Origin: a virus
Reading direction: 5' to 3' (one strand)
IMG/VR virus record: IMGVR_UViG_3300048928_000358
Span: 1 to 42,814 of that record
DNA length: 42,814 nucleotides
A model generated the notes under the pieces. That model was not told the origin of the DNA and searched no databases. It saw only the letters and a program-made list of their open reading frames with translations. Position numbers and translations under genes: made by a program. Positions 1 through 42,814 of the stretch are shown one piece after another; position 1 is the stretch's first letter, and each line of letters begins with the position of its first letter.

Positions 1-123
1 ACACCGGAGGCGGTGACGTCACCGCCGGCCCGCCCGCGACGCGGCCAGGGGGCGGCGAAGGCGGAGCCGGGGGGCGCTGCCGTCGCCGCTCCCGCTAGCG
101 GCGCGATCCGCGGCCTGAAGGCC
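1..123. repeat. Terminal direct repeat, left copy (circular join)
   Basis: Bases 1-123 are identical to bases 42692-42814. A coding frame passes through the repeat without interruption, so the two copies are best read as the overlap of a circular sequence and not as two real copies. The non-redundant length is then 42,691 bp. Confidence 0.95.
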
Positions 124-564
124 CTGCAGGCGCTCGCCGGGCACCCGGCCGGGCTGACCGAACAGCAATGGGCATGGATCGCCGGCCTGTCCCGGAAGGG
201 CGGTACCTGGACCACCTACAAGGGCGCGCTGCGCGTCGCCGGCCTGGTCGAACTGACCGGAGGCCGATGGCGCGTAACCGAGGCCGGCATCGCGGCCGTC
301 GGCCCGATCGGCGCGGTACCGCAGCTCGGCGCAGATCTCGCCCGCGCGTGGGCCGCGCGGATCCCCGGCACGCGCCGCATGGTCGACGTCCTGATCAAAC
401 GCTGGCCCCACATGGTCACGCGCGAAGCCCTCGCCGCCGATCTCGGGATGGCCACCGGCGGCGGCACCTTCACCACCTACCTCGGCCGCCTCCGCGGCCA
501 ATCCATGCTCGATGAGCAAAGCAAACGCCTGCGCCTCGCGCCGGCGCTGATGGGAGACGCCTGA
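1..564 (+). CDS. HerA-like ATPase, C-terminal part (continues from 41519)
   Basis: This is the 3' part of the gene that starts at 41519 and crosses the circular join. Position 1 is a codon start in the same frame, giving a 578-residue protein. This part holds a Pro/Ala-rich linker and then two similar winged-helix-like units, at about residues 430-475 and 517-561 of the full protein. Each carries the same signature (GGTWTTY and GGTFTTY), which suggests an internal duplication of a DNA-binding domain. The first in-window ATG (13) is internal and not a real start. The stop abuts the next small gene at 565. Confidence 0.85.
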   Translation, partial: TPEAVTSPPARPRRGQGAAKAEPGGAAVAAPASGAIRGLKALQALAGHPAGLTEQQWAWIAGLSRKGGTWTTYKGALRVAGLVELTGGRWRVTEAGIAAVGPIGAVPQLGADLARAWAARIPGTRRMVDVLIKRWPHMVTREALAADLGMATGGGTFTTYLGRLRGQSMLDEQSKRLRLAPALMGDA

Positions 565-2003: not shown

Positions 2004-2339
2004 ATGACGGTCCCGACGATCGTCCACCTCGACACGCGCGTCAGCCGGGCGTCGGAGCGCGGCCGCGGGCTCAAGCTGGAGCCCGCGGATCTCGATTTGC
2101 TCGTCAGCCTGGGCGTGATGGACATCCTGCACCGGGCCAAGGCCGATTATCTGAAGGAACAGGCACGATGCCGCGACGCGCGGAACCGCTCTATCAACGG
2201 GGCAAATACAAGCTCGACTGGGATCGACGAGCAGACGGCTCCCTCCGCTCTCCTTACCTCACGGTCTTCTGGTACGATGCCGAAGCGCAGCGCAAGCGTA
2301 GCCGTTCAACGGGCACGGCAGACGAAGCCGCCGGGATGA
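2004..2339 (+). CDS. Small helical protein overlapping the integrase start
   Basis: A 111-residue frame preceded by a purine-rich ribosome site (GGGAGAG at about 1990). The N-terminal 60 residues look like a folded helical protein (LKLEPADLDLLVSLGVMDIL, then a charged helix). The last 57 residues overlap the 5' end of the integrase gene (from 2168) in another frame and are Ser/Thr/Arg-rich. The overlap of 172 bases is unusual. Either the tail is real and the genes overlap, or the conserved part ends early. The function is unknown. Confidence 0.5.
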   Translation: MTVPTIVHLDTRVSRASERGRGLKLEPADLDLLVSLGVMDILHRAKADYLKEQARCRDARNRSINGANTSSTGIDEQTAPSALLTSRSSGTMPKRSASVAVQRARQTKPPG

Positions 2340-3472
2340 GGGCCCTGGACGCCCAATATCTTCAGGATGCGTCGGAATCGCCGGCCTACTGCCCGCACTG
2401 CGGCCGTCCGATGGCGCGCGCCACCGAATATCTGCTCGCCGACGCGATCGCGGACTATCGTCTCGAAATCGGCGACGAGCGCGCGTCGGCCGACACGATC
2501 GCGGCGCGGCTGAAACATGTCGTCGATTTCCTCGAGGCGACCAATCGGATCGAGGCCAGCTGCGCCCATGCGTGCGTGCCGGGATTCGCCGAGGCGTTTC
2601 GCCTATGGTCGAAGAAGCAGCCGGTCGTATGGCGCAACAAACAGGGTGCGATCACCGTCTCGCGCGCGCGATCGCCGGCGACGACCGAGGAATCGATCCT
2701 GCAGCTGGTCGCGGTGCTCAACCACGCGGCGAAAGAGAAGCGGTCGGACACGAGGCCGGAATACAGTCCGATCGGCCGCAAGCGCGTCACCCGCAAGCGC
2801 CGGGTGCGTGTCGACGTCGACGTGCTGGCGCGCATGCTCGCCTACGCGGCGGAGCCGAAGAAACAGCGCGAGACGCTCCACGCCTTCCTGGTCGGCTCGA
2901 TCTGCACCCTCGCCCGGCCGGACGCGGTCGTCGATATCTCGACCGATCCATCGCGCCGGCAATGGTGGCCGGGATCGACGACGATCGACCTGAACCCGCA
3001 GCTTCGGACGCAAACGAAGAAAAGCCGCCCGGTCCTGCCCGTCGTCCCGCTCCTCGATCGCTGGCTGACCGAGATCCACGCCGACGCCAACGACGAGAAG
3101 CGGCCGACGAATCACTGGCTGGTCAATTATTTCGGATCGCCGGTCGCGAACGTCGAATCGGCCTGGGAGACGATGCTCAAAAAATTGAGCCTCCCGCTCG
3201 ATCGCGAGTGGCGTCCCTACGTCCTGCGCCACAGCCTGGCGACGCTGATGCGCCGGCGCGGCGTCCCGAAATGGGAGCTCCAGGGCTTCATGGGCCACGC
3301 GGACGGAAGCGTGACCGAAACCTATGCTGTGGAGCTAGAATTTCCCAATGTCTGCAATGCGTTGAACGCCATCATTGGGGAATTGGAGGCGATGGCGCCC
3401 GGTGCTTTACACCGGACGCTCACCGGACCTTCTCACACTATCATCCCCCTAAGGAGACGCAAAATGCCCTGA
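2168..3472 (+). CDS. int: Tyrosine-type site-specific integrase
   Basis: A 434-residue tyrosine recombinase that integrates and excises the phage at the adjacent attP. Residues 1-45 form an N-terminal arm-binding-like region (LYQRGKYKLDWDRR). A CPHC pair sits near residue 74 and may bind zinc. The SAM-like core-binding domain covers about residues 85-200. The catalytic domain follows: the first arginine is probably that of LARPDA, box II reads YVLRHSLATLM (Arg-His), and GFMGHADGSVTETYA carries the second His and the Tyr nucleophile. The gene ends 15 bases before the attP core, the usual arrangement for P2-like phages. ATG 2168 is preceded by AAGGAAC. Confidence 0.95.
   Translation: MPRRAEPLYQRGKYKLDWDRRADGSLRSPYLTVFWYDAEAQRKRSRSTGTADEAAGMRALDAQYLQDASESPAYCPHCGRPMARATEYLLADAIADYRLEIGDERASADTIAARLKHVVDFLEATNRIEASCAHACVPGFAEAFRLWSKKQPVVWRNKQGAITVSRARSPATTEESILQLVAVLNHAAKEKRSDTRPEYSPIGRKRVTRKRRVRVDVDVLARMLAYAAEPKKQRETLHAFLVGSICTLARPDAVVDISTDPSRRQWWPGSTTIDLNPQLRTQTKKSRPVLPVVPLLDRWLTEIHADANDEKRPTNHWLVNYFGSPVANVESAWETMLKKLSLPLDREWRPYVLRHSLATLMRRRGVPKWELQGFMGHADGSVTETYAVELEFPNVCNALNAIIGELEAMAPGALHRTLTGPSHTIIPLRRRKMP
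3410..3428 (+). repeat. Candidate integrase arm sites, left pair
   Basis: The octamer CACCGGAC occurs at 3410-3417 and again at 3421-3428, an 11-bp period. A matching pair with the same 11-bp spacing lies on the other side of the attP core (3629-3647). Paired direct repeats in helical phase on both sides of a core are what arm-type integrase sites look like. The left pair lies inside the 3' end of the integrase gene. Confidence 0.6.
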
Positions 3473-3487
3473 TATCAGAGCATTAAG

Positions 3488-3532
3488 TGGTGGGCGCGGC
3501 TGGGATTGAACCAGCGACCCCTGCGGTGTGAA
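3488..3532 (-). other. attP: attP core: 3' half of tRNA-Val(CAC)
   Basis: On the minus strand these 45 bases read as the end of a tRNA: anticodon loop TTCACAC (anticodon CAC, valine), anticodon stem CGCAG, variable loop GGGTC, T stem and loop GCTGG-TTCAATC-CCAGC, acceptor CGCGCCC, discriminator A and an encoded CCA. The 5' side of the anticodon stem is not continued in the phage, so identity with the host tRNA is expected to start at the anticodon loop. Integration here would rebuild a complete tRNA-Val gene. The single uninterrupted core shows the element is in its excised form. Confidence 0.9.
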
Positions 3533-3628
3533 CAAAGGCGATATCCCGGATTTCCGCCATTTTTGACGCCCTTTGCTACTTAGCAACGGGCGCTAAACGG
3601 GCGAAAATCTGCCGATTTAGCTGCCTTT

Positions 3629-3647
3629 CGCCGGACTTCCACCGGAC
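3629..3647 (+). repeat. Candidate integrase arm sites, right pair
   Basis: CGCCGGAC at 3629-3636 and CACCGGAC at 3640-3647 repeat with the same 11-bp period as the pair at 3410-3428. Together the two pairs flank the attP core and probably bind the integrase N-terminal domain. Confidence 0.6.
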
Positions 3648-3698
3648 CCCGTAGGCGCCCCTTCCACCCCCGGAAATATCGCTCCACGATCTAGGCGG

Positions 3699-3764: not shown

Positions 3765-3848
3765 ATGTACTCGTTTACCTTCGCGGTAGGCGCGGCCGAG
3801 ACCGCCTGCCCTGCCATGTCAAATCAGCGCCGCGGTGCGGCACGATGA
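3765..3848 (+). CDS. 27-residue leader peptide, coupled
   Basis: A short frame begins with ATG eight bases after a good ribosome site (TGGAGG at 3754-3759). It ends in an ATGA overlap with the start of the HTH gene at 3845. It has no recognisable domain. The strong ribosome site and exact overlap suggest that translation of this leader delivers ribosomes to the HTH gene, which has no good site of its own at 3845. Confidence 0.4.
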   Translation: MYSFTFAVGAAETACPAMSNQRRGAAR

Positions 3849-4561
3849 CACAGACGCGCTACCACCAATCCGCCCCCGGCCTCGGCGATCTGCTCGCCGG
3901 CCGGAAGCACGGCCAGCATATGGAGCGCACCGGCAATCCTTGCTGGCGAGACAGCTACGACGTCGACGACGAACGCTGCCAACGGTTCGTTCATCCGGTC
4001 GACCGGGATGAGGTCGCGGCGATCCTCACCGTCGTCGAGCAGCACAATCTGGAAACGAAGGATCCGGGTAAGCGGTGCGGAGTGCTGCGGATGTGGGGCA
4101 CGGCTGTGATGCGCTACCTGTTGCGCGAGTCTCTTTCGAACAAGGGCGTTTGCTGTCCGTCACAAGCGCAGATCGCCCAGGCGCTGCGGATCGCGCGGAG
4201 CACGGTCGTGGCCACGCTCGAGGCGCTTGCGAGCGCCGGCTTCCTCGAATGGACGCGCCGCACGGTTATCGATGACGACGGCTCTGGGCCGCGGCGCAAG
4301 CAAACGAGCAACCTCTACCGCTTCATCCTGCCGAAGCACCTTGCCTGGCGCGTGAGCAAATTCCTGGTGAAGCGCTTCGGACGTAAGCCCGGGATACCGC
4401 GCAGCATTGCCGCGGCGCTCGCTCCGGCCGCCCTGGAGGCCCGCCGCGTCCGACTGATCGCCGGCCAGGAAGCGCGCCGGCGCAAGCGGCCGTCGATCGT
4501 CGAGGCGCTCGGCAGGCTGCTCAATGGAGCTAGCCCGAGTCCAATGAACGGACTGTCCTAG
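3845..4561 (+). CDS. Helix-turn-helix protein, possible replication/regulatory role
   Basis: A 238-residue protein with a winged helix-turn-helix at about residues 105-140 (CPSQAQIAQALRIARSTVVA, then a wing leading to GFLEWTRR). A basic region and a C-terminal helical tail follow. The HTH has the multi-step form seen in phage replication-organiser and MarR/GntR-type DNA-binding proteins. The frame is open upstream to 3731, but ATG 3845 coincides with the end of a coupled leader and begins the ordered part. It lies alone between attP and the cos-like region. It may initiate replication or regulate; neither is proven by sequence. Confidence 0.7.
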   Translation: MTQTRYHQSAPGLGDLLAGRKHGQHMERTGNPCWRDSYDVDDERCQRFVHPVDRDEVAAILTVVEQHNLETKDPGKRCGVLRMWGTAVMRYLLRESLSNKGVCCPSQAQIAQALRIARSTVVATLEALASAGFLEWTRRTVIDDDGSGPRRKQTSNLYRFILPKHLAWRVSKFLVKRFGRKPGIPRSIAAALAPAALEARRVRLIAGQEARRRKRPSIVEALGRLLNGASPSPMNGLS

Positions 4562-4676
4562 GGCCCGAAAGTTGAAGAATATGAGGAGTGACTACGTCAC
4601 GCTCTGATTTGTCGGACCCGCTGCAGGCGGATCGAGCCTCCAAACGTCCTGCCCGCCTGATGGCGATCGGCAGGGG

Positions 4677-4696
4677 GTGCCGGCTTGCGCCGGCAC
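4677..4696. repeat. Perfect 8-bp hairpin
   Basis: GTGCCGGC and GCCGGCAC pair around the loop TTGC. No T-run follows, so it is more likely a structural or protein-binding element near the packaging region than an intrinsic terminator. Confidence 0.5.
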
Positions 4697-4899
4697 AATG
4701 CTCCCCGACGGGGGCATGCGGCTTTCGGCATCCATCCCAGCCGACGTCATCCCTTGCGCAGGCCGGGGGACGCGCGGGGATGGGGGCTAGCGTGCAACAA
4801 ACCGCGATTTGGGCATGGGATGCCGCCAAGGCCCTATACCCTCGGAAACGGCGGGAAATCGGCCCTCCCCCGCCCCGGCGGGAAAACGAGGAATGCAAC

Positions 4900-4919
4900 A
4901 AAAACCGCTCCAAAAGCGG
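4900..4919 (-). terminator. Leftward intrinsic-type terminator
   Basis: Read on the minus strand, CCGCT-TTTGG-AGCGG is followed by TTTTT. It would stop leftward transcription coming from the terminase-portal-dam operon just before the cos candidate. The stem is only 5 bp, so the call is moderate. Confidence 0.4.
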
Positions 4920-4922
4920 GCG

Positions 4923-4943
4923 GGCGAGGCGCGGGGGCAAGCG
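4923..4943 (+). other. cos: Candidate cos (packaging) site
   Basis: The stretch starts GGCGAGGCG, then a G-run and CAAGCGC. The 19-base cohesive end of P2, as I remember it, is GGCGAGGCGGGGAAAGCAC, so the first nine bases agree exactly and the remainder is similar. The position also fits: in P2 the cos lies just beyond the leftward portal gene, at the genome end. Here it is non-coding, beyond portal and dam. The exact nicks cannot be seen. Confidence 0.5.
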
Positions 4944-5045
4944 CGGCGCCCGGGCCCGCGGTTTTCGGCCGGCCGGCCGGGCCGGGCGCCCGCCGCGGCC
5001 TCGCCCTTGACGGCGGCGGTCTGGTTTTGTTCTCATTGGGGGGTG

Positions 5046-5471
5046 ATGGCCCGCCGCGGAACGCCCTTCCCTGTTGAACCCACCCGGCCGGTCCAGGAGA
5101 AAGCTGTAGCGCTGTGTGTCCGGGAGCTGCCGCTCGGCGTGTTCGATCGCCGCATGGCAAAGCTCGGCGCGCCGGGCGCGATCGCGGCGATTCGTGGCAG
5201 CGCTACGGACGACCGGCCCTATCTGGTCCGCCTGCTGCAGCAGACGTTGCGCGACTGCACCGAGCCCGGGAACGGCGGCGAGCCCTACCATATCTGCGCG
5301 CGGTTGTATGAGCAGCTGGTCGGGCCGTTCGGGCCCGACGAAGAGCGTTGGCTGATGCAGGTGCTCGTCAACACCTGGATCCCCGAGACGATCAGGGATG
5401 AGATGGGCGGGCCGACGAAGCTGACGCCCTGGGCGAAGGCCGAGCTGGCGCGATGGTCCTGCCTGCCCTGA
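5046..5471 (+). CDS. Hypothetical protein next to cos region
   Basis: A 141-residue protein of unknown function. The frame is open upstream to 4809, but that part is Arg/Pro/Gly-rich shadow sequence. ATG 5046 begins the ordered part (MARRGTPFPVEPTRP). The rest is mostly helical, with conserved-looking tracts RPYLVRLLQQTLRD and DEERWLMQVLVNTWIPETIR. It is the only rightward gene between the HTH gene and the leftward packaging operon. The two operons converge at about 5471-5511. Confidence 0.6.
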   Translation: MARRGTPFPVEPTRPVQEKAVALCVRELPLGVFDRRMAKLGAPGAIAAIRGSATDDRPYLVRLLQQTLRDCTEPGNGGEPYHICARLYEQLVGPFGPDEERWLMQVLVNTWIPETIRDEMGGPTKLTPWAKAELARWSCLP

Positions 5472-7530: not shown

Positions 7531-9391
7531 GTCCGAAGCTCCTTACTCTGGTCTTGCGTGAGTGGCTGTCGCCGGGATCGAGCGGCTCGGCCGCAAGCGC
7601 GTGCATGATCGCCCAGGCGAGATCGGCATGGCCGGTGTCGCCGGCCCGGCTCGCGACATAAGTGACCTGGCGCTGCGAGCCGGTCAGCTCGGCGCGGATC
7701 GCCATGAAGCTGTTCGCGATATCGAGCGCGCCGGAATCGAACTCGAGGCGCTTCGCCATCATGACGCTCTTGGCCTTCAGGACCATCTGCGTCTTGACCG
7801 GTACCGAATAGTCGATCCGCCGCGCGGTCGGGAAACGCTTCGTGACCAGCTGCCAGACCGACGCGCCGACGCCGGTCGTATCGATGCCGATGTAGCTGAC
7901 GTTGTAGCGGTCGAGCTGCTCGATGATCTTGTCGGCCTGCGCCTGGAAATCGAGACCCTTCAGCCGGTATTTCTCCAGCACGCGGATCTTGTCCTTCGGC
8001 GATCGCGGCGCCGCGAGGATGACGAGCGCCGCATCGTCGCCGGCGGCGCTCTCCGCCGGATCGTAGCCGATCCACACCTCGCGATCGCCGAACGGCCGCA
8101 GCGCATAGGGGTCGAAATCCTCTGCCCAGGCATCCCAGCTGTCGACCATGCAGCCGCGCATCAGTGCGAACGGGAACATCGACTGGCTGTCGTCGACGAA
8201 CCGGCACATGTAGAGATTGTCGAAAACGTCGGGCGGATAGCGCAGCCGGAGCCGTTGCTCGCTCATCAGCTCGCACCCGCCGGCGCGCGCATCGAGCAAG
8301 GTCACGACCTGGCGCCAGATGCCGTCGGGCCCGAGCACGCCGCGGCGCAGCGCCTCCGGATCCATGTCGAACGCCGCGCGATCGGCCTTCGCCCGATCGG
8401 CGTTGAACTTCTCGCCGCTCCAGACCCGGTGCGCTTGGTGGGCGACGGTCGACGGCGTCGAGAAATAGGTGATGCGGTAGCGATCATGGCTCGCCATCGC
8501 GCTGGCGACTTCGTCGATGCGTTCGAACGCATGAACCCAGAAACATTCGTCGATGTAGACGTCGCCGTGATAGCTCTGCGCCGTCCGGTAATTGGTCCCG
8601 AGGAAATAGAGTTTCGGCGCCTCGCCGTTCGGCCCGGCGATCTCGTCCAGGTCGAGGATGATCGGGTCGCCGGTCAGCTGGACGCCGCAGGCGTTGAACA
8701 CGAAGTCGACGATATATTGGCGAAAGACGTTCGCCTGGGCGCGGCTCGCCGAAATGAAGATCTGGTTGTTGCCGGTCTCGAGCAGGCGGCAGAAGGCTTC
8801 GCGCGCGAAATAGAAGGTCGCGCCGATCTGCCGGCTTTTCAGAATGAAGCGCGTCGCCAGCGCCGTCGATCCGGCGAACATCGCGATCGGCGCGCGCCAC
8901 GCCAACTGGTAGGCGAACAGCCCGTCGCTAAAGGCCGCCTTGACCGCGTCGACCTGTTCGGCCGTCAGGTAATTCTTGCGGGCCTTTTTCTTCGGCGCCT
9001 CGTTGCGCGCGAGGATGTTCGGATTAAGATCCGCTTCGCGCCCGGTCTCGCGATATTTGCCGATCCGCGCGAACCGCTCGATCTGTCGGCCGAGCAGGTC
9101 GATTTCCTTGAAATCGTGCCCGCTCTTCGTCTCCTTTTCGACCAGCGTGCAATAGCGCGTCTCGAGGCAGCTCTCGCACCGGGCGACGAGCGGCGCCTCA
9201 TCCCATCCGTCGCGAGCCTTCCACGATCGCACCGTCGCGGCCTTCAAGGTCAGCCCGTGCAGCGTGTTCAGCTCGTCGACCAGCTGCTCGATCGCCCAGC
9301 CGCGCCAGTAGAGCGACCGGGCCAGGCGGCGCGGATCGAGGAATCGCTCGCCCTGCAGCGGCGCGGAAGGATCGGGGGCGGGCCCAGTCAT
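7172..9391 (-). CDS. P: Terminase large subunit/ATPase (P2 gpP family)
   Basis: The packaging motor. An N-terminal HTH (LYWRGWAIEQLVDEL, about 25-40) recognises DNA. The ATPase has a Walker A-like KSRQIGATFYFAREA (about 184-198) and Walker B VYIDECFW (about 275-282). The C-terminal nuclease has VWIGYDPAES (about 430) and YIGIDTTGVG. The gpP-like part ends near DLAWAIMHALAAEPLDPG, about 610 residues, close to the 590 of P2. No stop follows in frame: the reading frame continues another 120 residues through the start of the portal gene to 7172, with Arg-rich shadow-type sequence. A TAA at 7543-7545 lies in another frame, so an indel or lost stop near 7545 is likely. Confidence 0.93.
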   Translation of the reverse strand: MTGPAPDPSAPLQGERFLDPRRLARSLYWRGWAIEQLVDELNTLHGLTLKAATVRSWKARDGWDEAPLVARCESCLETRYCTLVEKETKSGHDFKEIDLLGRQIERFARIGKYRETGREADLNPNILARNEAPKKKARKNYLTAEQVDAVKAAFSDGLFAYQLAWRAPIAMFAGSTALATRFILKSRQIGATFYFAREAFCRLLETGNNQIFISASRAQANVFRQYIVDFVFNACGVQLTGDPIILDLDEIAGPNGEAPKLYFLGTNYRTAQSYHGDVYIDECFWVHAFERIDEVASAMASHDRYRITYFSTPSTVAHQAHRVWSGEKFNADRAKADRAAFDMDPEALRRGVLGPDGIWRQVVTLLDARAGGCELMSEQRLRLRYPPDVFDNLYMCRFVDDSQSMFPFALMRGCMVDSWDAWAEDFDPYALRPFGDREVWIGYDPAESAAGDDAALVILAAPRSPKDKIRVLEKYRLKGLDFQAQADKIIEQLDRYNVSYIGIDTTGVGASVWQLVTKRFPTARRIDYSVPVKTQMVLKAKSVMMAKRLEFDSGALDIANSFMAIRAELTGSQRQVTYVASRAGDTGHADLAWAIMHALAAEPLDPGDSHSRKTRVRSFGHGNPGGVAGAGGRDGADRRDEQRPGDPGVPVRRHRAGARSARPDQLRRVHVERAVVRAADPDARSRARLPCQPASFERDHLQARPARPPFQAVAAARSPQLRRHGVQLPDDRQRLSRAA

Positions 9392-9437
9392 CGCCGGCGA
9401 CGCTAGCCGCGCCGCCGGAGACAGTGCGCTCGGCCGC

Positions 9438-9462
9438 TGTTGTAGATCGCGCTCCTACAACA
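9438..9462. promoter_or_regulatory. Late activator (Ogr-type) dyad, divergent P/O promoters
   Basis: TGTTGTAG and CTACAACA form 8-bp perfect arms around the 9-base centre ATCGCGCTC. The same 25-bp element stands at 15754-15778 (one mismatch) and 23611-23635 (identical). P2 Ogr and P4 Delta bind dyads of the type TGT-N12-ACA about 55 bases upstream of late starts. Here one site sits between divergent terminase and scaffold genes and could serve both. Confidence 0.85.
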
Positions 9463-9575
9463 AGCCCGCGTTGCGATCGGCACGCCTTCCCGCGCTTGTT
9501 CGGCCGACGGATCGCGGCGGTTGCCCCCTTGCCGCCGCGGTCCACCGAAACAGCCCCCGGGAGCCCGACGAGTCC

Positions 9576-10430
9576 ATGGCCAAGACCCGCTTTTTCCGCA
9601 TCGCCATCGAGGGCGGTACGACCGACGGCCGCGTGATCGAGCGCGCCTGGATCGAACAGATGGCCGCAGACTATAATCCGGCCACCTACACCGCCCGGAT
9701 CAACTGCGAACATCTGCGCGGCTATTCGCCCGAACCCCCGTTCAACAGCTATGGCTCTGTCACCGCGCTGAAGGCTGAGCCGGTACAGCTCGAGATCGGC
9801 GGCAAGAAGCAGACCCGCCTGGCGCTCCTGGCGCAGCTCGATCCCAACGAGCAGCTGCTCGCGATCAACAGCAAGCAGCAGAAGCTGTTTACCAGCTGCG
9901 AGATCTCGACCGACATGGGCGGCACGAAGCGCGCCGGCCTGGTCGGCCTTGCCGTGACCGACAACCCCGCCAGCCTGGGGACCGAGATGCTGGAATTCGC
10001 CGCGAAACAGTCCGTCAACCCGTTCGCCGCGCGCAAGACCGATCCGACCAACCTTTTCTCGGCCGCGACCGAGGCGACGATCGAGCTCGAGGCGGAGACT
10101 CCGCCGGCGCCGAGCGAGGCCCAGGGCTTTTTCGCCGCGGCCACCGAATTCTTCAAGGCGCTGAAGGGCGAGCCGGCCAAGGATCCGGCGACCCCGCCAC
10201 CCCCGCCGCCGGCCGCCAACGACAATGACGCGCGCTTCGCCGCGGTCCTGTCCGGCGTCGAGAAGCTTGCCGCCGGTATCGAGGCGATGGGCAAGGATCT
10301 GCAGGGCTCGATCACCAAGCTGCGCGGCGACCACGATGCGCTGAAGGCGTCGATCGAGACCACCGATGGCGACAGCCGGCAGCGCCCGCCCGCCACCGGC
10401 GGCGGCAACTACGCCCGCGCCGACTTCTAA
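9576..10430 (+). CDS. O: Capsid scaffold and maturation protease (P2 gpO family)
   Basis: 284 residues, the same length as P2 gpO. It acts as an internal scaffold for the capsid and as the serine protease that cleaves itself and the other head proteins. The catalytic triad is in place: Asp17, His46 (INCEHLRGY) and Ser107 (LFTSCEIS), against Asp19, His48 and Ser107 in P2 as remembered. A Pro/Ala-rich linker (about 205-215) leads to a C-terminal helical scaffold region (VLSGVEKLAAGIEAM). An in-frame extension upstream to 9471 is Arg/Pro-rich; ATG 9576 begins the conserved MAKTRFFRIAIEG. Confidence 0.95.
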   Translation: MAKTRFFRIAIEGGTTDGRVIERAWIEQMAADYNPATYTARINCEHLRGYSPEPPFNSYGSVTALKAEPVQLEIGGKKQTRLALLAQLDPNEQLLAINSKQQKLFTSCEISTDMGGTKRAGLVGLAVTDNPASLGTEMLEFAAKQSVNPFAARKTDPTNLFSAATEATIELEAETPPAPSEAQGFFAAATEFFKALKGEPAKDPATPPPPPPAANDNDARFAAVLSGVEKLAAGIEAMGKDLQGSITKLRGDHDALKASIETTDGDSRQRPPATGGGNYARADF

Positions 10431-31618: not shown

Positions 31619-31933
31619 ATGAGTGATCATTTCGAGACGGAAGGAGTGGAATGGCGTCCACAGCTCAGTGCGGAAGGTGAGCGACTTGCCGAGCAGGTGC
31701 GCGCCGATCTTGTCGAGCGGGCCAATCTGTTTCGGCAGGTTCGCAAGATGCTGAACGTGCCGCAGGCGCGCGCGGCCGAGGTTCTGGCGACCAGCCAGGC
31801 CAACATTTCGAAGATCGAGGCGCGCGGGCGCATCGATATCGCGCAGTTGCAGCAATTCGCCGAGGCGTTCGGCGCAAAGCTCCACCTGGTCCTGGAAAAG
31901 GCCGACGGCGAGAAGGTCGAGATCGCGGCTTAG
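31619..31933 (+). CDS. XRE-family HTH regulator, antitoxin-like
   Basis: A 104-residue protein with an XRE helix-turn-helix at about residues 38-90 (RKMLNVPQARAAEVLATSQANISKIE, then LQQFAEAFGAKLHLVLEKADG). This architecture is typical of HigA-like antitoxins and of regulators paired with RelE/HigB toxins, in which the C-terminal strand ends the fold. The N-terminal 35 residues are acidic and may bind a partner. It most likely represses its own promoter at 31141-31235 together with the 31301 product. Confidence 0.75.
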   Translation: MSDHFETEGVEWRPQLSAEGERLAEQVRADLVERANLFRQVRKMLNVPQARAAEVLATSQANISKIEARGRIDIAQLQQFAEAFGAKLHLVLEKADGEKVEIAA

Positions 31934-32057: not shown

Positions 32058-32333
32058 ATGATCAAGTCCTTCCGCAGCCGGCCTCTGAAGCGTTTCGCCG
32101 AAACCGGCGATGCGTCGAAACTGCCGGTCAACAACCCTGATCGGATCCGCCGCATCCTCGCCCTGCTCGATGCGGCGACGAAGCCCGAGGATATGAACAT
32201 CCCCGGCCTTCGCTTCCACGGCCTGCAGGGCAAGCCGAAGCGCTACGCGGTCGATGCAAGCGGCAACTACCGCATCACCTTCGGCTTCGACGGGCCGGAT
32301 GCGATCGCGGTCGATCTGGAGGACTATCACTGA
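32058..32333 (+). CDS. higB: HigB-type toxin (RelE superfamily)
   Basis: A 91-residue protein of the HigB/RelE plasmid-maintenance toxin type, a ribosome-dependent mRNA endonuclease. Features are IKSFRSRPLKRFAETGDASKLP at the start, RIRRILALLDAATKPEDMNIPGLRFHGLQGKPKRYAVDASGNYRITF (with the usual GLRFH and WRITF-like NYRITF tracts) and FDGPDAIAVDLEDYH at the end. ATG 32058 begins the conserved part; 12 upstream codons are in frame but lie in the promoter. It stands before its antitoxin, the order typical of higBA. Confidence 0.93.
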   Translation: MIKSFRSRPLKRFAETGDASKLPVNNPDRIRRILALLDAATKPEDMNIPGLRFHGLQGKPKRYAVDASGNYRITFGFDGPDAIAVDLEDYH

Positions 32334-32358
32334 TGTCGATGAGACCAAGGAGGGTCGG

Positions 32359-32664
32359 ATGAATAGTTTGCTCAAGGGCCTGCGCCCCACCCATCCCGGC
32401 GAGGTGCTGCGCGAAGACGTGCTGCCGGCGCTCGGCCGGAACAAGGCCGAGATCGCGCGCGCGCTCGGCGTGTCGCGCCATACGCTCTACGAGCTGCTCG
32501 GCGAACGCCAGCCGGTCACACCGCAGATGGCGCTGCGGCTCGGCAAGCTGTGCGGCAACGGCCCCGAGATCTGGTCGCGGATGCAGGGCGCCTTCGATCT
32601 CGCGGTAGCGGCCGAGGCGATGGCCGACGAGCTGGCGAGGATCCCGACGCTCGAAGCGGCCTAG
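32359..32664 (+). CDS. higA: HigA-type antitoxin
   Basis: A 101-residue XRE-type antitoxin that neutralises HigB and represses the operon. The start is typical (LLKGLRPTHPGEVLREDVLPALG). The helix-turn-helix covers about residues 29-60 (KAEIARALGVSRHTLYELL, then RQPVTPQMALRLGKL), and the end has the family WSRMQGAFDLAVAAEAM. ATG 32359 follows AAGGAGG. The gene lies 25 bases after higB and faces the leftward glycosyltransferase gene. Confidence 0.94.
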   Translation: MNSLLKGLRPTHPGEVLREDVLPALGRNKAEIARALGVSRHTLYELLGERQPVTPQMALRLGKLCGNGPEIWSRMQGAFDLAVAAEAMADELARIPTLEAA

Positions 32665-32671
32665 CGCCGGG

Positions 32672-33688
32672 TCATCCCCGGATCGCGATCTTGCCCAGCC
32701 GCAGCGCCGATCGCGCGGTCTGCATCGTCACGCCCTTCAGCGCCCGGCTGCGGTGCAGCCGGCCGACGTGCCGCAGCAGCTGCCACAGCAGCAGGCGGGT
32801 CGATCGGAACGCGGCGCCGGGATCGCGCCGATTGAGATCGTGCTCCACCCGGCGCAGCACGCGCAGAACGGTCCAGGCCACCTCGCCCCCGGCCTCGGGA
32901 TAGCGCGCCAGCAGTTCGGCGATCGATGGATCCGCGCCGTCGGCGAACGCATCGACGCCGGCCCGCTCGACGATCGCGCCGGCGAGCTGCGCCTTCAGCG
33001 CGCTGGCGAGCTGGATCTCGGCATGGCGTGTCGAGACCGCGCCCCCATGGATCCGATAGTCGAGCAGCACCTCGGGCAGGATCGCCATCTTGCCCAGCCG
33101 CGCCAGCCGGATGAACAGGTCGTGATCCTCGGCATGGGGAAACTGCTCGCGGTACCCGCCCAAGCTGACGATCGCGTCGCGCCGGACCATTAGGCTCGGG
33201 TGCGGCACTGCCGCGACATAGGGCGGGAACCGCCGCATATCGGTCTGGCGGCCCTGCCCTCCCGGCTGTTGCACATGGCCGGGCCTGCCGGCCTCGTCGA
33301 TCACCCGGAACAGGCAGCCGACGAACACATGGTCGGGCTGCTCGTCGAGATAGGCGGCCTGCTTTTCCAGTCGATCGGCGCGCGCGATATCGTCGGCGTC
33401 CATCCGCGCGACGTAGCGACCGTTCGCCATGGCCAAGCCATTGTTCAGCGCGCCGACGATCCCCGCGTTCGTCTGATGGAACACCTTCAGCCGCGGATCC
33501 TTCGCCGCCAGCGCGTCGAGCATCTCGCCCGAGCCGTCGGTCGATCCGTCGTCGACGGCGATGATCTCGATCGAGCGGAGCGTTTGCGCGCGGATCGATG
33601 CGATGCTCTCCGCCAGATAGCGCGCTGCATTGTACACCGGGATCACTACGGAAACGTCCGGTCTGCCCCTGACGTCGGTTTTCTGCAT
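32672..33688 (-). CDS. Family 2 glycosyltransferase (lysogenic cargo)
   Basis: A 338-residue GT-A fold glycosyltransferase. The nucleotide-sugar region is VSVVIPVYNAARYLAESIASI (about 12-32) and IEIIAVDDGSTDGSGEM; the DxD-type metal site is in VARMDADDIARADRLEKQ (about 93-110); the acceptor/catalytic part is EDHDLFIRLARLG (about 188-200), with the ED of family 2. The C-terminal 100 residues are basic and helical and could lie on the inner membrane. It is not a phage structural gene. Such cargo usually modifies host surface sugars and can block further phage adsorption; that use is inferred. Confidence 0.9.
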   Translation of the reverse strand: MQKTDVRGRPDVSVVIPVYNAARYLAESIASIRAQTLRSIEIIAVDDGSTDGSGEMLDALAAKDPRLKVFHQTNAGIVGALNNGLAMANGRYVARMDADDIARADRLEKQAAYLDEQPDHVFVGCLFRVIDEAGRPGHVQQPGGQGRQTDMRRFPPYVAAVPHPSLMVRRDAIVSLGGYREQFPHAEDHDLFIRLARLGKMAILPEVLLDYRIHGGAVSTRHAEIQLASALKAQLAGAIVERAGVDAFADGADPSIAELLARYPEAGGEVAWTVLRVLRRVEHDLNRRDPGAAFRSTRLLLWQLLRHVGRLHRSRALKGVTMQTARSALRLGKIAIRG

Positions 33689-33780: not shown

Positions 33781-33806
33781 TTACACATATACAGCTATAT
33801 GTGTAA
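33781..33806. promoter_or_regulatory. Perfect 26-bp palindrome, operator
   Basis: TTACACATATA and TATATGTGTAA are exact 11-bp inverted arms around CAGC. It lies in an AT-rich pocket between the leftward glycosyltransferase gene and a rightward ribbon-helix-helix gene (33853). The arms resemble the ACATGTAAG/CTTACACAT ends around the higBA operator. It is most likely the operator of the ribbon-helix-helix protein. Confidence 0.75.
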
Positions 33807-35714: not shown

Positions 35715-35946
35715 TCGCGCCCCCTTCATCCCGCTGACAGACGCGAGCGTAGACCAGATCCGCACCTTGCTGGACCGCGATCGAGGCTCGCTTTCGCGGG
35801 AGAACCGGCTCGCCGCAGCCGCGCTCGGCACGCTCGCGACGCTCGAGGTGATCGATCGCTACACGGGGCTGCTCCCGGCCGACGACGTCCGCGAGCTGCT
35901 GGCGACGCCGATCGCGCGGCTCCGGTCGGCGCTGGACGCTCAATGA
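35707..35946 (+). CDS. Small helical early protein, hypothetical
   Basis: A 79-residue protein starting at ATG 35707, which begins MADRAPFIPLTDASVDQI. The frame is open upstream, but that part is shadow sequence of the earlier genes. It is all helical and acidic/basic in balance, without any motif known to me. It overlaps the neighbours at both ends. Confidence 0.65.
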   Translation: MADRAPFIPLTDASVDQIRTLLDRDRGSLSRENRLAAAALGTLATLEVIDRYTGLLPADDVRELLATPIARLRSALDAQ

Positions 35947-36434
35947 CGAAGCTCCGCGCGCCTCTCAGCTTCGAACAGGCGATCACCGTGATCGGCGGCT
36001 TGCTTGGCTGGGCCGAGGCCGCCGCGGTGATCGGCAGGAAGGAGCGGACGCTGCGCGACTATGGCGATCCTGACGTCCAGGCGCAGATCACCCTGGAGGA
36101 TGCGTTCGCGCTCGATCGCGCCTATCGCGCCGCGGGCGGCGACGGCACGCCGATCCTGCAATGTTACAAATTTCGCCTGGACGCTGCGGCAGCGGTGTCC
36201 GGTGGAGATCTCGAGGCGCTGGCCCGCCTCGCCCAGTCAGTCGCCAGCGAGGGGGGTGACGCGATCGCGGCCCTGTTCGGCTGCATCAGACCGGGCGCGA
36301 CGCCAGCTGACTTCGCCCTAGCCAGGCGCGAGATCGAGCAGGCGTTGACCGCCCTCTCGAACACCCTGCCGATACTCGATGGCGCGGGGCCATCGTCGGA
36401 CAGGGTGCAGCCCCGAGGGGGGGCAATCGCGTGA
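35943..36434 (+). CDS. Putative CII-like phage regulator
   Basis: A 163-residue protein. A probable helix-turn-helix lies at about residues 22-60 (GWAEAAAVIGRKERTLRDYGD, then ITLEDAFALDRAYRAAGGDG), which resembles the phage regulatory CII family found in P2-like early operons. The rest is helical. Position two to three genes after the switch suits such a protein. The match is to the general pattern only, so an alternative as a structural early protein remains. Confidence 0.6.
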   Translation: MTKLRAPLSFEQAITVIGGLLGWAEAAAVIGRKERTLRDYGDPDVQAQITLEDAFALDRAYRAAGGDGTPILQCYKFRLDAAAAVSGGDLEALARLAQSVASEGGDAIAALFGCIRPGATPADFALARREIEQALTALSNTLPILDGAGPSSDRVQPRGGAIA

Positions 36435-36784
36435 CGAAAACCACCAACGAGCGCGGGCGCAACCGCGTGACCTGTCCCCATTGCGAAGCGGCGGCGCATG
36501 TCCGCTCGAGCCGCGCCGTGACCGATATGGTCCGGCAACTGTTCTACGCCTGCACCAATTTCGAATGCGGCTGCACCTTCGGCGCCCAGCTCGAAATCAC
36601 CCATCAGATTTCGCCTTCAGCCCGCCCGAACCCGGCGGTGATGCTGCGGACGGCGCCGCCCCGCCACCGGATTGGGGCGCGCCCGGCCAACGACAATCGC
36701 GTGGCGGCGAACGACGCCGGCGGCCTGGAGGTGCCGCCGATCCTCCCCGCCAACGATCAGGAATCGGAACGCCAGGCCCTCTAG
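36431..36784 (+). CDS. ogr: Late gene activator, Ogr/Delta-type zinc finger
   Basis: A 117-residue protein with Cys15, Cys18, Cys41 and Cys46, exactly the CX2CX22CX4C pattern of P2 Ogr and P4 Delta. These recruit host RNA polymerase through its alpha subunit at dyads upstream of late promoters, here most likely the three 25-bp dyads at 9438, 15754 and 23611. The zinc part ends near residue 60; the last 57 residues are Pro/Asn-rich and longer than in P2 Ogr (72 residues). GTG 36431 overlaps the preceding gene. In P2, ogr follows D; here it is an early-operon gene. Confidence 0.92.
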   Translation: MTKTTNERGRNRVTCPHCEAAAHVRSSRAVTDMVRQLFYACTNFECGCTFGAQLEITHQISPSARPNPAVMLRTAPPRHRIGARPANDNRVAANDAGGLEVPPILPANDQESERQAL

Positions 36785-39429: not shown

Positions 39430-39575
39430 TGCTCCGGCGCCTTGGCTGGTTGCTGATCAGCGGTCTGCTGATCTTTCTCGCGGTGCGAAGCATCCGCGAG
39501 CCCGAAGCGATGCTGGCGACCATCATCATGTTCGCAGCCGGATTGACGACTCGGCGCGTGGTCGACGGCGAATGA
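39426..39575 (+). CDS. Small membrane protein
   Basis: A 49-residue protein with a hydrophobic N-terminal segment (LGWLLISGLLIFLAV, about 6-20) and a second weak one (AMLATIIMFAAGL, about 28-40). It starts at ATG 39426 or 39429 and is coupled to both neighbours. This is the third small membrane protein of the early operon, with those at 565 and 37673. Confidence 0.55.
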   Translation: MMLRRLGWLLISGLLIFLAVRSIREPEAMLATIIMFAAGLTTRRVVDGE

Positions 39576-41047
39576 CTGTCGAGGCCCTCCCAAAGGAAGC
39601 GCAGACCGGCCTGGCCGCCGGCCTGCTCCCCATGAAATCCCGACGCGGAGCCGGTGGCAGCCGGATCCGTGAGCGATCTGAGCCGCCCAAGTCGGGATTC
39701 GCTCGCGGCGCCCTACCAGAGACCCGGAGACAGGAGATGCTTACCACTATCCGTTTGGGAAATCTCAGCCGTTCTGATCTGAACGTCCGCAAGACCGATC
39801 CCGCCGCCGATATCGTCACCCTGGCCGATGACATCCACCGCCGCGGCCTGAAACAGAACCTCGTTGTCGAACCGCACGCCGATCGGCCTGGCTGTTACGT
39901 CGTCGTCGCCGGCGGCCGCCGGCTCGAGGCGCTATGGAACCTCGTTGACCGCGAGTTGATGTCGCTCGATGCCGAGATCCCTGCGCTGATCGAGCAGGTC
40001 GGCGAAGGCCGCGAGACGAGCCTCGCCGAGAACATCCAGCGCGTCGCGATGAACCCGGCCGACGAGCTCGAGGCATTCGCGACGATCGTCCGCGAGCATG
40101 CCGACCAGCCCGATCCGATCGCCTACTGCGCCGGGCGGTTCGGCAAGACCGTCCGCTACGTCGAGGAGCGCCTGCACCTCGCGGAGCTCGCGCCCGACAT
40201 CCTCGCCGCGCTGCGCGACGGTCGCATCGGCATCAAGGCGGCCGAGGCCTACGCCAGCGTCGCCGATCACGATGTCCAGTTGAAGGTCTTCGCGGCCGAG
40301 GAGAAGCGCTACGGCGGCCGCCACGAGCCGCGCAACATCCGGGACGGGATGAAGGCGCGCACCTATCCGGTCGGGATCGCACAGGCGCTCTACGTCGGGA
40401 TCGACGCCTACATGGCCGATGGCGGCCGCGTCGGCAGCGATCTGTTCATGGGCGACGATCAGGGCGGCGAGCTGATCCTCGATCCCTCGAAGCTCGACAC
40501 GCTGGCCCGCAAGAAAGCCGCGCAGGAGCTGGAAACGATCGCACCGGCCGACGGCTTCGCCTCCGGCCTGCTCGTCCAGGGCTTCGGCCTCTATCCGAAC
40601 TGGCCGCCGGCGCCGGCGGGCTATGAGCGCGCATGGGGGGACGCTGACCGGTTGAAGGGCGACAAACGCGCCGCCGCGATCGGCGTTTACCACCTCAAGG
40701 ATGGTGCGCTCGCATGCGCTGGATGGTTCAAGCCGCGACAATCGGCAGAGGAGACTGCTGCCGCTCGCCAGCGCGATCAGAATTTCTGGCGTGAACAGCA
40801 ACGCGATCGCGCCGTACGCTGCCGCGCGGCGGCACTGGCCGCTAGCCGCCTCGATGTCGCGGACCTGCGCGAGCGGCTGATCTTCGAGCCGGATGATTAT
40901 CTCGAGGAGGAAGACGACGGCTCGATCCTGGTCAGCGTGCAGGTCCGCCTGACAGCCGACGAAGTCGCAGCGCTGAAGGCGGAGGCCGAAACCGCCTATG
41001 CGGCCGAGCAGGCGGCCGCCGAGCAGCCCGAGGCGGCCGCGGCGTGA
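39572..41047 (+). CDS. ParB/RepB/Spo0J-type DNA-binding protein
   Basis: The frame gives 491 residues; ATG 39737 (residue 56), preceded by ACAGGAG, is the likelier start (436 residues). The ParB N-terminal nuclease/CTP-binding fold is clear: VAGGRRLEAL (about 112-121) as the box II equivalent and SLAENIQRVAMNPADELEAF (about 149-168) as box I. The helix-turn-helix follows (YCAGRFGKTVRYVEERLHLA, about 188-207). The C-terminal 200 residues have no known domain except an acidic segment and an Ala/Glu-rich end. No ParA is present. It stands beside the HerA-like ATPase and may load or mark phage DNA. The exact role is unknown. Confidence 0.85.
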   Translation: MTVEALPKEAQTGLAAGLLPMKSRRGAGGSRIRERSEPPKSGFARGALPETRRQEMLTTIRLGNLSRSDLNVRKTDPAADIVTLADDIHRRGLKQNLVVEPHADRPGCYVVVAGGRRLEALWNLVDRELMSLDAEIPALIEQVGEGRETSLAENIQRVAMNPADELEAFATIVREHADQPDPIAYCAGRFGKTVRYVEERLHLAELAPDILAALRDGRIGIKAAEAYASVADHDVQLKVFAAEEKRYGGRHEPRNIRDGMKARTYPVGIAQALYVGIDAYMADGGRVGSDLFMGDDQGGELILDPSKLDTLARKKAAQELETIAPADGFASGLLVQGFGLYPNWPPAPAGYERAWGDADRLKGDKRAAAIGVYHLKDGALACAGWFKPRQSAEETAAARQRDQNFWREQQRDRAVRCRAAALAASRLDVADLRERLIFEPDDYLEEEDDGSILVSVQVRLTADEVAALKAEAETAYAAEQAAAEQPEAAAA

Positions 41048-41298
41048 TGGCGCATGACGATCGCTGCGACTGCGCCTTCTGCCGCGAGGTCCGCATGTTC
41101 GCCGTCCGGCCCGAGGACGTCGATCGCGTCCACCTCGCCAATGAATGGGAGCGCTGGCGCGGCTTGGACGACGGCGAGGTTCGCAAGCTCCGGGCCGGCG
41201 AGAACGGCAACCCGGGCTCGCCGAGGTGGATCGCCCTGCAGGCGATCGCGCGCGCCCGGATGGCCGCCGAGAAAGCGCGGGTCGTGACCATTCGATGA
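41047..41298 (+). CDS. Small CxCxxC protein
   Basis: An 83-residue protein with CDCAFCREVRMF near the N-terminus (from about residue 7), followed by RPEDVDRVHLANEWERWRGLDDGEV and GNPGSPRWIALQAIARARM. The cysteine start is like that of the 37673 product. ATG 41047 overlaps the ParB-like stop. It probably binds zinc. I recognise no named family. Confidence 0.65.
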   Translation: MAHDDRCDCAFCREVRMFAVRPEDVDRVHLANEWERWRGLDDGEVRKLRAGENGNPGSPRWIALQAIARARMAAEKARVVTIR

Positions 41299-41522
41299 GC
41301 ACGCCCACGCCCAAGATAGCGGCCGCCGGGCGCACGCTGTATGGCGCCTATGCCGCGTGGCAGCGCGAGCGAGGATGCGCATATCCCGATTGGGAGGCGC
41401 TCGACGCCCTGCATCGATCCGTCTGGTACCGGCTCGCCGAAGCCGCCTGCGCGCACTTCGCCAGCTGGCCCCACGACGCGCTCGACGGGCGGATCGTCGC
41501 CCCGCGGAGCGACGTCGCATGA
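41295..41522 (+). CDS. Small hypothetical protein
   Basis: A 75-residue protein starting with ATG 41295 in an overlap with the preceding stop; its own stop overlaps the ATPase start (ATGA at 41519). It has three Trp residues and a helical middle (WEALDALHRSVWYRLAEAAC). It is coupled on both sides to the ParB-like/HerA-like pair and may act with them. The function is unknown. Confidence 0.6.
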   Translation: MSTPTPKIAAAGRTLYGAYAAWQRERGCAYPDWEALDALHRSVWYRLAEAACAHFASWPHDALDGRIVAPRSDVA

Positions 41523-42814
41523 CCGAGCTGCTCGACACGACCAAGCTGATCGTCGGCACGTCCGGCATGGGCAAGACAGTCACGATGAAGGGCGAGGTGG
41601 AGCAGCTGCTGAAGCAGCGGCGGCACCTCGCCCTGATCGATCCCACGGGAGCCTCATCCGGCCTCCGCTCGAACGCCGCCGGTGACGGCCCCGGCTTCGA
41701 TATCCCGATCTTCGGCGGCCGCCTCGGCGATCTGCCGATATCGCCGCGCGATGGCGACGCGGTTGCTCGGATCGTCGTCGAACAGCGCGTTTCCGCGATC
41801 CTCGATCTGTCGGATCCGGATCGTTTTCCCGACGAGCAAGCGCAGCGCGCTTTCGTCCTGCCGTTCCTGCAGCGCCTTCGCCGCAAGGATCGCGGCAATT
41901 TCCACCTGATCCTGGACGAGGCCGACGATCTTTGCCCGCAGCAACCGCCCGATGGCGAGGCCTTCGCGCTCGTCCGCACGATCCGCTGGTTTTCGAAGAA
42001 GGGCCGCCTGCCCGGCTTCGTCCTGACCCTGGTCACGCAGCGCCCCGCTGATATCGACAAGGCGGTGATCAGCCAGGCGCAGACGATCATCGCACACCGC
42101 CTGGTCATGCCGCTCGATATCGACACGATCGACCGGTATCTGAAGGTGCGCGGCGATCGCGGGGTTCGCGATCAGGTGATCAAGTCGCTGCCCGAGCTCG
42201 CCCGCGGCGAGCGGTGGATCTACAGCCCGGGCCTGAAGCTGCTGGAGCGGGGCGTCTCCCCGGCGCTGGAGACCTTCGACAGCTCGCGAACGCCGGAGCC
42301 GGGCGAGGCGCGTCTGGATCCGGTTACCTTCGCCCAGCTTGACCTGTCGGCGATCCGCGCAGCTCTGTCGGAGCACGAACCCCAACCCAAAGTGGTGACG
42401 ATATCGGCGCACGCGGAGGATCAGGTTGGCGAGGTTCGCCGCGCTCTTGCCGCCTCGAGCGGTTTCCAGAGCCTTTTCGTGCACAGCCCTACGGCCGACC
42501 CGCGCGACGGCCGCATCGCCTTTCTCCAGGCGAGGATCGCCGAATTGGAGGCCGAACGGGACAGTTTGGCGAGGGTGCTCGTCAGTTTCGAAGCCGCCTT
42601 GGTCGAAATGTTGAACGCGAACCGGGCCGCGATCGACGCTGCCCGGATCAAATTGCAGTCTGTCGATGCAGATCCGCCATCCGTGCGCGTGACACCGGAG
42701 GCGGTGACGTCACCGCCGGCCCGCCCGCGACGCGGCCAGGGGGCGGCGAAGGCGGAGCCGGGGGGCGCTGCCGTCGCCGCTCCCGCTAGCGGCGCGATCC
42801 GCGGCCTGAAGGCC
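41519..42814 (+). CDS. HerA/FtsK-like P-loop ATPase, N-terminal part (continues at 1)
   Basis: The gene starts at ATG 41519, runs off the window end and continues in phase at base 1 to 564; the full product is 578 residues. The P-loop is GTSGMGKT (13-20). Walker B is LILDEADDL (Asp133-Glu134), and the sensor-type LVTQRPADIDKAVISQAQ is typical of HerA/VirB4-type DNA translocases. A charged coiled coil covers about 328-385, and two similar winged-helix units form the C-terminus. The family are hexameric motors that pump or resect DNA. Beside a ParB-like gene and in the early operon, it may serve replication, segregation or DNA entry; this is inferred. Confidence 0.85.
   Translation, partial: MTELLDTTKLIVGTSGMGKTVTMKGEVEQLLKQRRHLALIDPTGASSGLRSNAAGDGPGFDIPIFGGRLGDLPISPRDGDAVARIVVEQRVSAILDLSDPDRFPDEQAQRAFVLPFLQRLRRKDRGNFHLILDEADDLCPQQPPDGEAFALVRTIRWFSKKGRLPGFVLTLVTQRPADIDKAVISQAQTIIAHRLVMPLDIDTIDRYLKVRGDRGVRDQVIKSLPELARGERWIYSPGLKLLERGVSPALETFDSSRTPEPGEARLDPVTFAQLDLSAIRAALSEHEPQPKVVTISAHAEDQVGEVRRALAASSGFQSLFVHSPTADPRDGRIAFLQARIAELEAERDSLARVLVSFEAALVEMLNANRAAIDAARIKLQSVDADPPSVRVTPEAVTSPPARPRRGQGAAKAEPGGAAVAAPASGAIRGLKA
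42692..42814. repeat. Terminal direct repeat, right copy (circular join)
   Basis: Identical to bases 1-123. It lies inside the ATPase gene, whose codon phase is kept across the join (42692 is a codon start in the frame of 41519; base 1 is a codon start in the frame ending at 564). Confidence 0.95.

Follow-up and report, generated by a model that had tools for sequence, protein, structure and literature searches.

We analysed the early genes and the putative replication functions of a P2-like phage represented by IMG/VR virus record IMGVR_UViG_3300048928_000358, and we refer to the whole stretch of 42,814 nucleotides as the window. The two ends of the window share an exact 123-bp direct repeat (1-123 = 42692-42814), so the genome is a circle of 42,691 bp. 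For the same reason the HerA-like ATPase, which runs across the join, is 578 aa long and not 619 aa, and the tandem repeat of 41 aa that it seemed to have at the join is an artefact. The early side encodes a repressor, a CII-like regulator, Ogr/Delta, a P22-type antirepressor, a ParB-like protein, two small coupled genes, the HerA-like ATPase, GapR and a tyrosine integrase. Beyond the integrase lie a tRNA-derived attP and then a winged-helix gene (3845-4561), which is predicted to encode a replication initiator of the RepA type (Table 1). Scans of the window for tRNAs and Rfam RNAs found none.

Table 1. Features of the early and replication regions of the window (circular genome; coordinates are those of the window).
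Feature	Position	Strand	Evidence and remarks
HerA-like ATPase, C-terminal part, two winged-helix repeats	1..564	+	Continues 41519 across the circular join
GapR homologue, 79 aa	991..1230	+	PF10073 9e-35 over the whole protein; 76% identical to pZM36 GapR1
Tyrosine integrase	2168..3472	+	PF00589 1.7e-8
attP	3403..3648	+	tRNA 3' end core 3487-3533; direct arm-type repeats 3403-3429 and 3622-3648
Predicted RepA-type winged-helix replication initiator, 238 aa	3845..4561	+	Plasmid homology, RepA profile, PHROG matches
Gene-free stretch 3' of repA, candidate origin (speculative)	4562..5138	.	No gene called; two copies of CGGCGGGAAA(T/A)CG, 27 bp apart
CII-like regulator	35943..36434	+	PHROG CII-like 1e-4; kept in the same early module of G001, G003, G004, G006, G012
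Ogr/Delta zinc finger (P2 late activator)	36431..36784	+	PF04606 7e-18
ParB-like protein	39572..41047	+	Start probably 39737 (436 aa), by homologues; GGRRxxA and EN CTP-pocket residues conserved
Small coupled ORF, 84 aa	41044..41298	+	GTG start overlaps ParB stop; no family match
Small coupled ORF, 75 aa	41295..41522	+	ATGA overlaps at both ends; no family match
HerA-like hexameric ATPase, N-terminal part (P-loop, Walker B)	41519..42814	+	Bases 42692-42814 duplicate 1-123

The late genes form a P2-type block (divergent Q/P, O-N-M-L, FI, FII, T, U and D), all of them homologous to genes of the P2-family phage-plasmid pZM36, and the terminase has gpP-like domains. Phage P2 itself has the virion genes, the divergent Q/P pair, Ogr/Delta and the tyrosine integrase in common with the window. 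The P2-like phages are the classic example of temperate phages with rolling-circle replication, and P2 has a gpA replicon; the window has RepA instead. We observed no match to the profile of this HUH rolling-circle initiator (PF05840) in the window, while an E. coli control was positive. In 20+ related phage records this profile also gave nothing above the cut-off, and a partial match in G012 (14.7 bits, under the cut-off) was rejected as a gpA (records other than the window are denoted here by G and L numbers).

The absence of a P2 gpA had already been pointed out in the first-pass annotation, which was made from the sequence alone, and our search agrees with it. That annotation further saw no HUH-type initiator in the window, and named the HTH protein at 3845 as the other candidate for initiation. 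The phage does not, however, seem to lack an initiator, and this second suggestion gains support, as the HTH protein is a homologue of plasmid RepA. The discovery of an initiator by profile search had been named there as evidence against its proposal; what emerged was a likely initiator by plasmid RepA homology, and no gpA-type protein.

When we examined the HTH protein by tblastn, homologues turned up in 176 plasmid records, the best with E 1e-13, and another member of the family, that of L044, has relatives in 230 plasmid records. The homology spans most of the protein and takes in the conserved GFLxWxRR and GPxxxQxSNxY segments; the homologues sit on many plasmid types, where they are annotated as replication protein A. 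A profile of the family matched five plasmid RepAs with E values of 1e-50 to 1e-67, and the 'replication protein A' of pAgK84 shares 45% identity with the L044 homologue across 95% of the latter. The alphaproteobacterial plasmids in the family include pAgK84, Sphingomonas pA46BH3, and Zymomonas pZMOB04 and pZM36; the RepAs of pAgK84 and of sphingomonad plasmids are of one protein family with that of the window across most of their length. Among viral loci, 16 members were found, and 13 of these 16 matched a PHROG of O-like replication initiation. Direct evidence of replication comes from relatives: a fragment of pZMOB04 bearing an HTH (pfam13730) gene has served as the replicon of a shuttle vector (PMC10832546), and the cloned gene is presumably the RepA homologue of that plasmid. 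Judged from its homology to plasmid RepA, 3845-4561 is likely to be the replication initiator, here in a P2-like phage rather than a plasmid and with an origin that is a candidate only.

We also considered whether the 3845 protein, encoded beside att, instead regulates transcription or serves as a recombination directionality factor. A winged helix is the only thing recognised in it, and its family usually adjoins att or an integrase. However, its homologues include the many plasmid proteins described above, pZM36 carries the gene yet has no annotated integrase, and the PHROG matches are mostly to replication initiators. The role of late activator is taken by Ogr, and since this separate Ogr/Delta gene exists, the HTH protein is not required for it. 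A role in regulation or excision therefore seems rather unlikely to us.

The likely initiator has a recurrent companion. GapR directly precedes repA in the plasmids pZM36, pZMOB04 and pZZM403, so that the two genes recur as a replicon pair. Both are present in the window, with int and attP in between. The identification of this protein as GapR in the first-pass annotation is borne out by the PF10073 match, although it scores 90 bits against the NCBIfam GapR equivalog, below the 140-bit cut-off. Its position had been given as four genes after HerA; only a 40-codon ORF and the ORF 687-998 intervene. The replicon core is most likely RepA together with GapR. In Caulobacter, GapR forms a ring around overtwisted DNA and enhances the action of type II topoisomerases (summarised in PMC12185513). 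In the Erythrobacter phages R34L1/R34L2, which resemble the window in this respect, GapR (ORF28) adjoins a ParB/Srx protein (ORF29); these are siphoviruses with their own DNA synthesis genes, and HerA is not mentioned in that paper (PMC12185513). Two further arrangements of GapR were seen among the records. A P2-like phage that lacks both ParB and HerA encodes a fusion of GapR with an FtsK gamma domain (L046:6251-6865; PF10073 + PF09397 9e-22), and in a HerA-bearing prophage GapR adjoins a protein like the DNA polymerase sliding clamp (L077:832-2192).

The native Zymomonas mobilis plasmid pZM36 (NZ_CP023680, L063) is a P2-family phage-plasmid, reported at about 1 copy per cell and with 27 of its 47 genes related to phages (PMC5930841). 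It carries Ogr/Delta, GapR, GapR and RepA in a row, followed by two unrelated genes and then by ParA, portal and terminase. In common with the window it has the late block P-Q-O-N-M-L-X-J-I-FI-FII-E-T-U-D (about 24-55% identity), Ogr/Delta, GapR and RepA (36% identity), and no gpA is annotated in it. It differs in that ParA is present and that integrase, ParB and HerA are not annotated, whereas the window has a tRNA integration site and ParB-HerA. We conclude that this P2-like phage, which has a circular genome, integrates, and belongs to a sphingomonad-like host, probably has a plasmid-type replicon in place of the gpA rolling-circle replicon of P2. An alphaproteobacterial branch of the P2-like phages seems to use a plasmid initiator in place of the rolling circle, and one exchangeable replicon would connect phage-plasmids such as pZM36 both with phages that integrate and with ordinary plasmids such as pAgK84.

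Apart from RepA and GapR, ParB and HerA are a second, translationally coupled unit, as the stop and start codons overlap in series from ParB through the ORFs at 41044 and 41295 to HerA at 41519. The ParB-like protein has weak Pfam matches to ParB_N and HTH_ParB. When a profile of its family was compared with known structures, Spo0J, ParB, Noc and KorB were matched (best E 5e-53), and the AlphaFold model (pLDDT 78) resembles Noc and also ParB structures with CDP or CTP-gamma-S in the pocket. The residues of the CTP pocket are invariant across the family alignment. The protein is thus a genuine ParB and was rightly recognised as ParB-like in the first-pass annotation, though probably not with the right start, to judge from the homologues. 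Chromosomal and plasmid ParB/Noc proteins share with it ParB_N with the CTP-pocket residues, the HTH and the fold; unlike them, it has no ParA and no recognised parS, and HerA is the coupled ATPase. It is 38% identical over 271 aa to the ParB of pAgK84. On that plasmid the same-family ParB lies two genes ahead of RepA, and ParA is also present, whereas in the window HerA, GapR, int and attP separate ParB from RepA.

The description of the second protein as a HerA-like ATPase with two winged-helix units also holds. The family profile matched HerA in the PDB (8e-22), Walker A and B are intact within a HerA/FtsK ATPase core, and the two C-terminal winged-helix repeats recur across the family. The P-loop starts near residue 13, and HerA models match mainly via their C-terminal part; the N-terminal region of full-length HerA is not present ahead of the ATPase in the window.

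We further estimated how often the two genes occur together. Relatives of HerA were gathered from viral contigs and genomes, plus 299 genomes of one family that were not chosen for ParB (7 had HerA); they were found with an alignment as the query, while single-protein scans of viral contigs gave nothing. The conserved ParB-HerA neighbourhoods in other phages that the first-pass annotation had suggested looking for do recur. ParB was upstream of HerA in G001, G002, G004, G006, G012, L017, L027, L074 and L076, with the order reversed in L016, and the same order was seen in sphingomonad prophages. The P2-like late block is common to the window, G001, G003 and G006. The late genes are different in G002, G004 and G012, which indicates that the early module crosses virion types. 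Two other candidates for a ParB-motor neighbourhood were rejected: MW202482 has an SMC-like protein, annotated as 'chromosome segregation protein', upstream of HerA, and the 'FtsK-like DNA translocase' beside ParB in Gordonia phage HannahD (gp56, L008:10869-11921) has no motor in its sequence and resembles a sliding clamp that ends in a winged helix. A phage DnaA homologue lies between ParB and HerA at L050:3510-4523 (G012 9025-10038), with ATPase and DNA-binding domains and a TIGR00362 match (1e-91) below the equivalog cut-off; G012 also has GapR and RepA.

Of the HerA-bearing records that were sufficiently complete, 5/5 with ParB (window, G002, G012, G082, G121) and 1/9 without it had RepA (Fisher p=0.003); with so few records, and with phages that are related, p values here are optimistic and serve as guides only. 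G025, where ParB is distant in sequence and position, was scored as being without ParB. In G082 and G121, which are sphingomonad genomes, RepA is about 40 kb from ParB-HerA, at the opposite end of the prophage. Seven P2-like relatives with RepA (G016-G020, G022, G023) had neither ParB nor HerA, and hence the ParB-HerA unit appears to be tied to RepA-type replication yet optional. A literature search, thin on subscription papers, found no description of a ParB-HerA pair and no P2-like phage described with this RepA family; there is, on the other hand, earlier knowledge of phage-plasmids, of phages with ParB and of a phage with GapR (PMC12185513).

We consider it reasonably probable that this P2-like phage has a plasmid-type RepA/GapR replicon, with an optional ParB-HerA unit serving as a ParB-guided dsDNA motor. 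RepA, at one end of the prophage beside att, would bind an origin near its own gene and start theta replication, and GapR, its usual partner, would bind the overtwisted DNA ahead of the forks and relieve the stress. ParB would be a CTP-dependent DNA clamp that works without ParA and loads at a site on the phage, and it would direct or retain the hexameric HerA motor on phage DNA. The motor, in turn, may segregate, clear or process this DNA after replication. A ParB clamp that guides HerA is the simplest reading because of the coupled translation, the conserved order and the enzyme families. A more far-reaching version is tentative, and on balance we doubt it: a ParA-independent motor in which a CTP-switched ParB clamp at a phage parS recruits a HerA hexamer to pump the replicated DNA, the early module moving among P2-like and other tailed phages with the plasmid RepA replicon. 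ParB-HerA raises the question of whether ParA is the only DNA motor that ParB can drive.

Besides the small counts mentioned above, several observations weigh against the RepA/GapR replicon with a ParB-guided motor. No clear parS site and no clustered repeated palindrome were found in the window. Near repA there were no DnaA boxes (<=1 mismatch) and no iterons, only weak repeats, and the structure model of RepA resembles only generic winged helices (Foldseek was uninformative). One record, G021, has HerA and RepA without ParB, and HerA occurs without ParB in many phages, which means that a dedicated pair is not obligatory.

The first-pass annotation suggested that ParB, HerA and GapR may make up a system for replication, segregation or take-over. 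As a rival reading we considered them as the machine for replication or host take-over, with the HTH protein as a regulator only. ParB and HerA do share one early operon with coupled starts. In addition, ParB is missing where a TOPRIM primase-helicase-like protein occurs, as if the two were swapped: the P2-like G003 and L075 have no ParB or RepA and have this protein in their place. However, G003 and G258 lack RepA as well, so that the primase-helicase could equally well stand in for RepA, and the HTH protein is kept in the seven P2-like relatives without ParB and HerA, and likewise in pZM36, where neither is annotated. We therefore consider such a machine unlikely. The primase-helicase-like protein itself is 900 aa long, with a primase-like zinc finger, TOPRIM and a helicase-like P-loop, and was seen in HerA phages without ParB or RepA (L034:10317-13010, L075:2785-5487).

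A role of ParB-HerA in defence or inter-phage conflict, as for HerA with SIR2, DUF4297 or NurA, could also be envisaged. The PADLOC HerA and mad8 models match the ATPase core, the PDB relatives are HerA-type ATPases, and members of the ParB superfamily in conflict systems are reported to be nucleases (PMC5512222). The HerA of the HerA-NurA and SIR2-HerA systems has the ATPase core and Walker A/B in common with the window protein, which differs from it in having tandem C-terminal winged helices and no long N-terminal region. No NurA or defence effector domain was found among the early genes scanned, leaving HerA with no nuclease or effector partner in the operon, and ParB-HerA lies in an early operon that also encodes an antirepressor, and it tends to occur where RepA does; we thus regard defence as an improbable function. 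Classical plasmid partition of an extrachromosomal prophage, with HerA as unrelated cargo, is unlikely, for although pZM36 is a plasmid and pAgK84 has ParB, RepA and ParA together, the profile of the cognate ParA (PF13614) matched nothing in the window, nor anything in the ParB-HerA relatives tested, and the window carries an integrase and a tRNA attP. The plasmid-type replicon with an optional ParB-guided motor remains our preferred reading.

The attP core of the window also adjoins the repA end of prophage L048. The CACCGGACC repeats were considered as iterons and rejected, as they lie on both sides of attP and resemble arm sites of the integrase. The palindrome CGGCGATCGCCG occurs seven times in the window (at 1953, 14175, 16876, 19679, 25304, 29482 and 37980; 0.21 expected from shuffles) and is found in G002 and G012 too; it was rejected as a parS because the copies are scattered over the genome. 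An intergenic, AT-rich inverted repeat of 26 bp, TTACACATATA-CAGC-TATATGTGTAA, is present at 33781-33806. A possible cargo region, with a family 2 glycosyltransferase and two antitoxin-like HTH genes, lies at 32672-33646 (-), 31619-31933 and 32254-32664.

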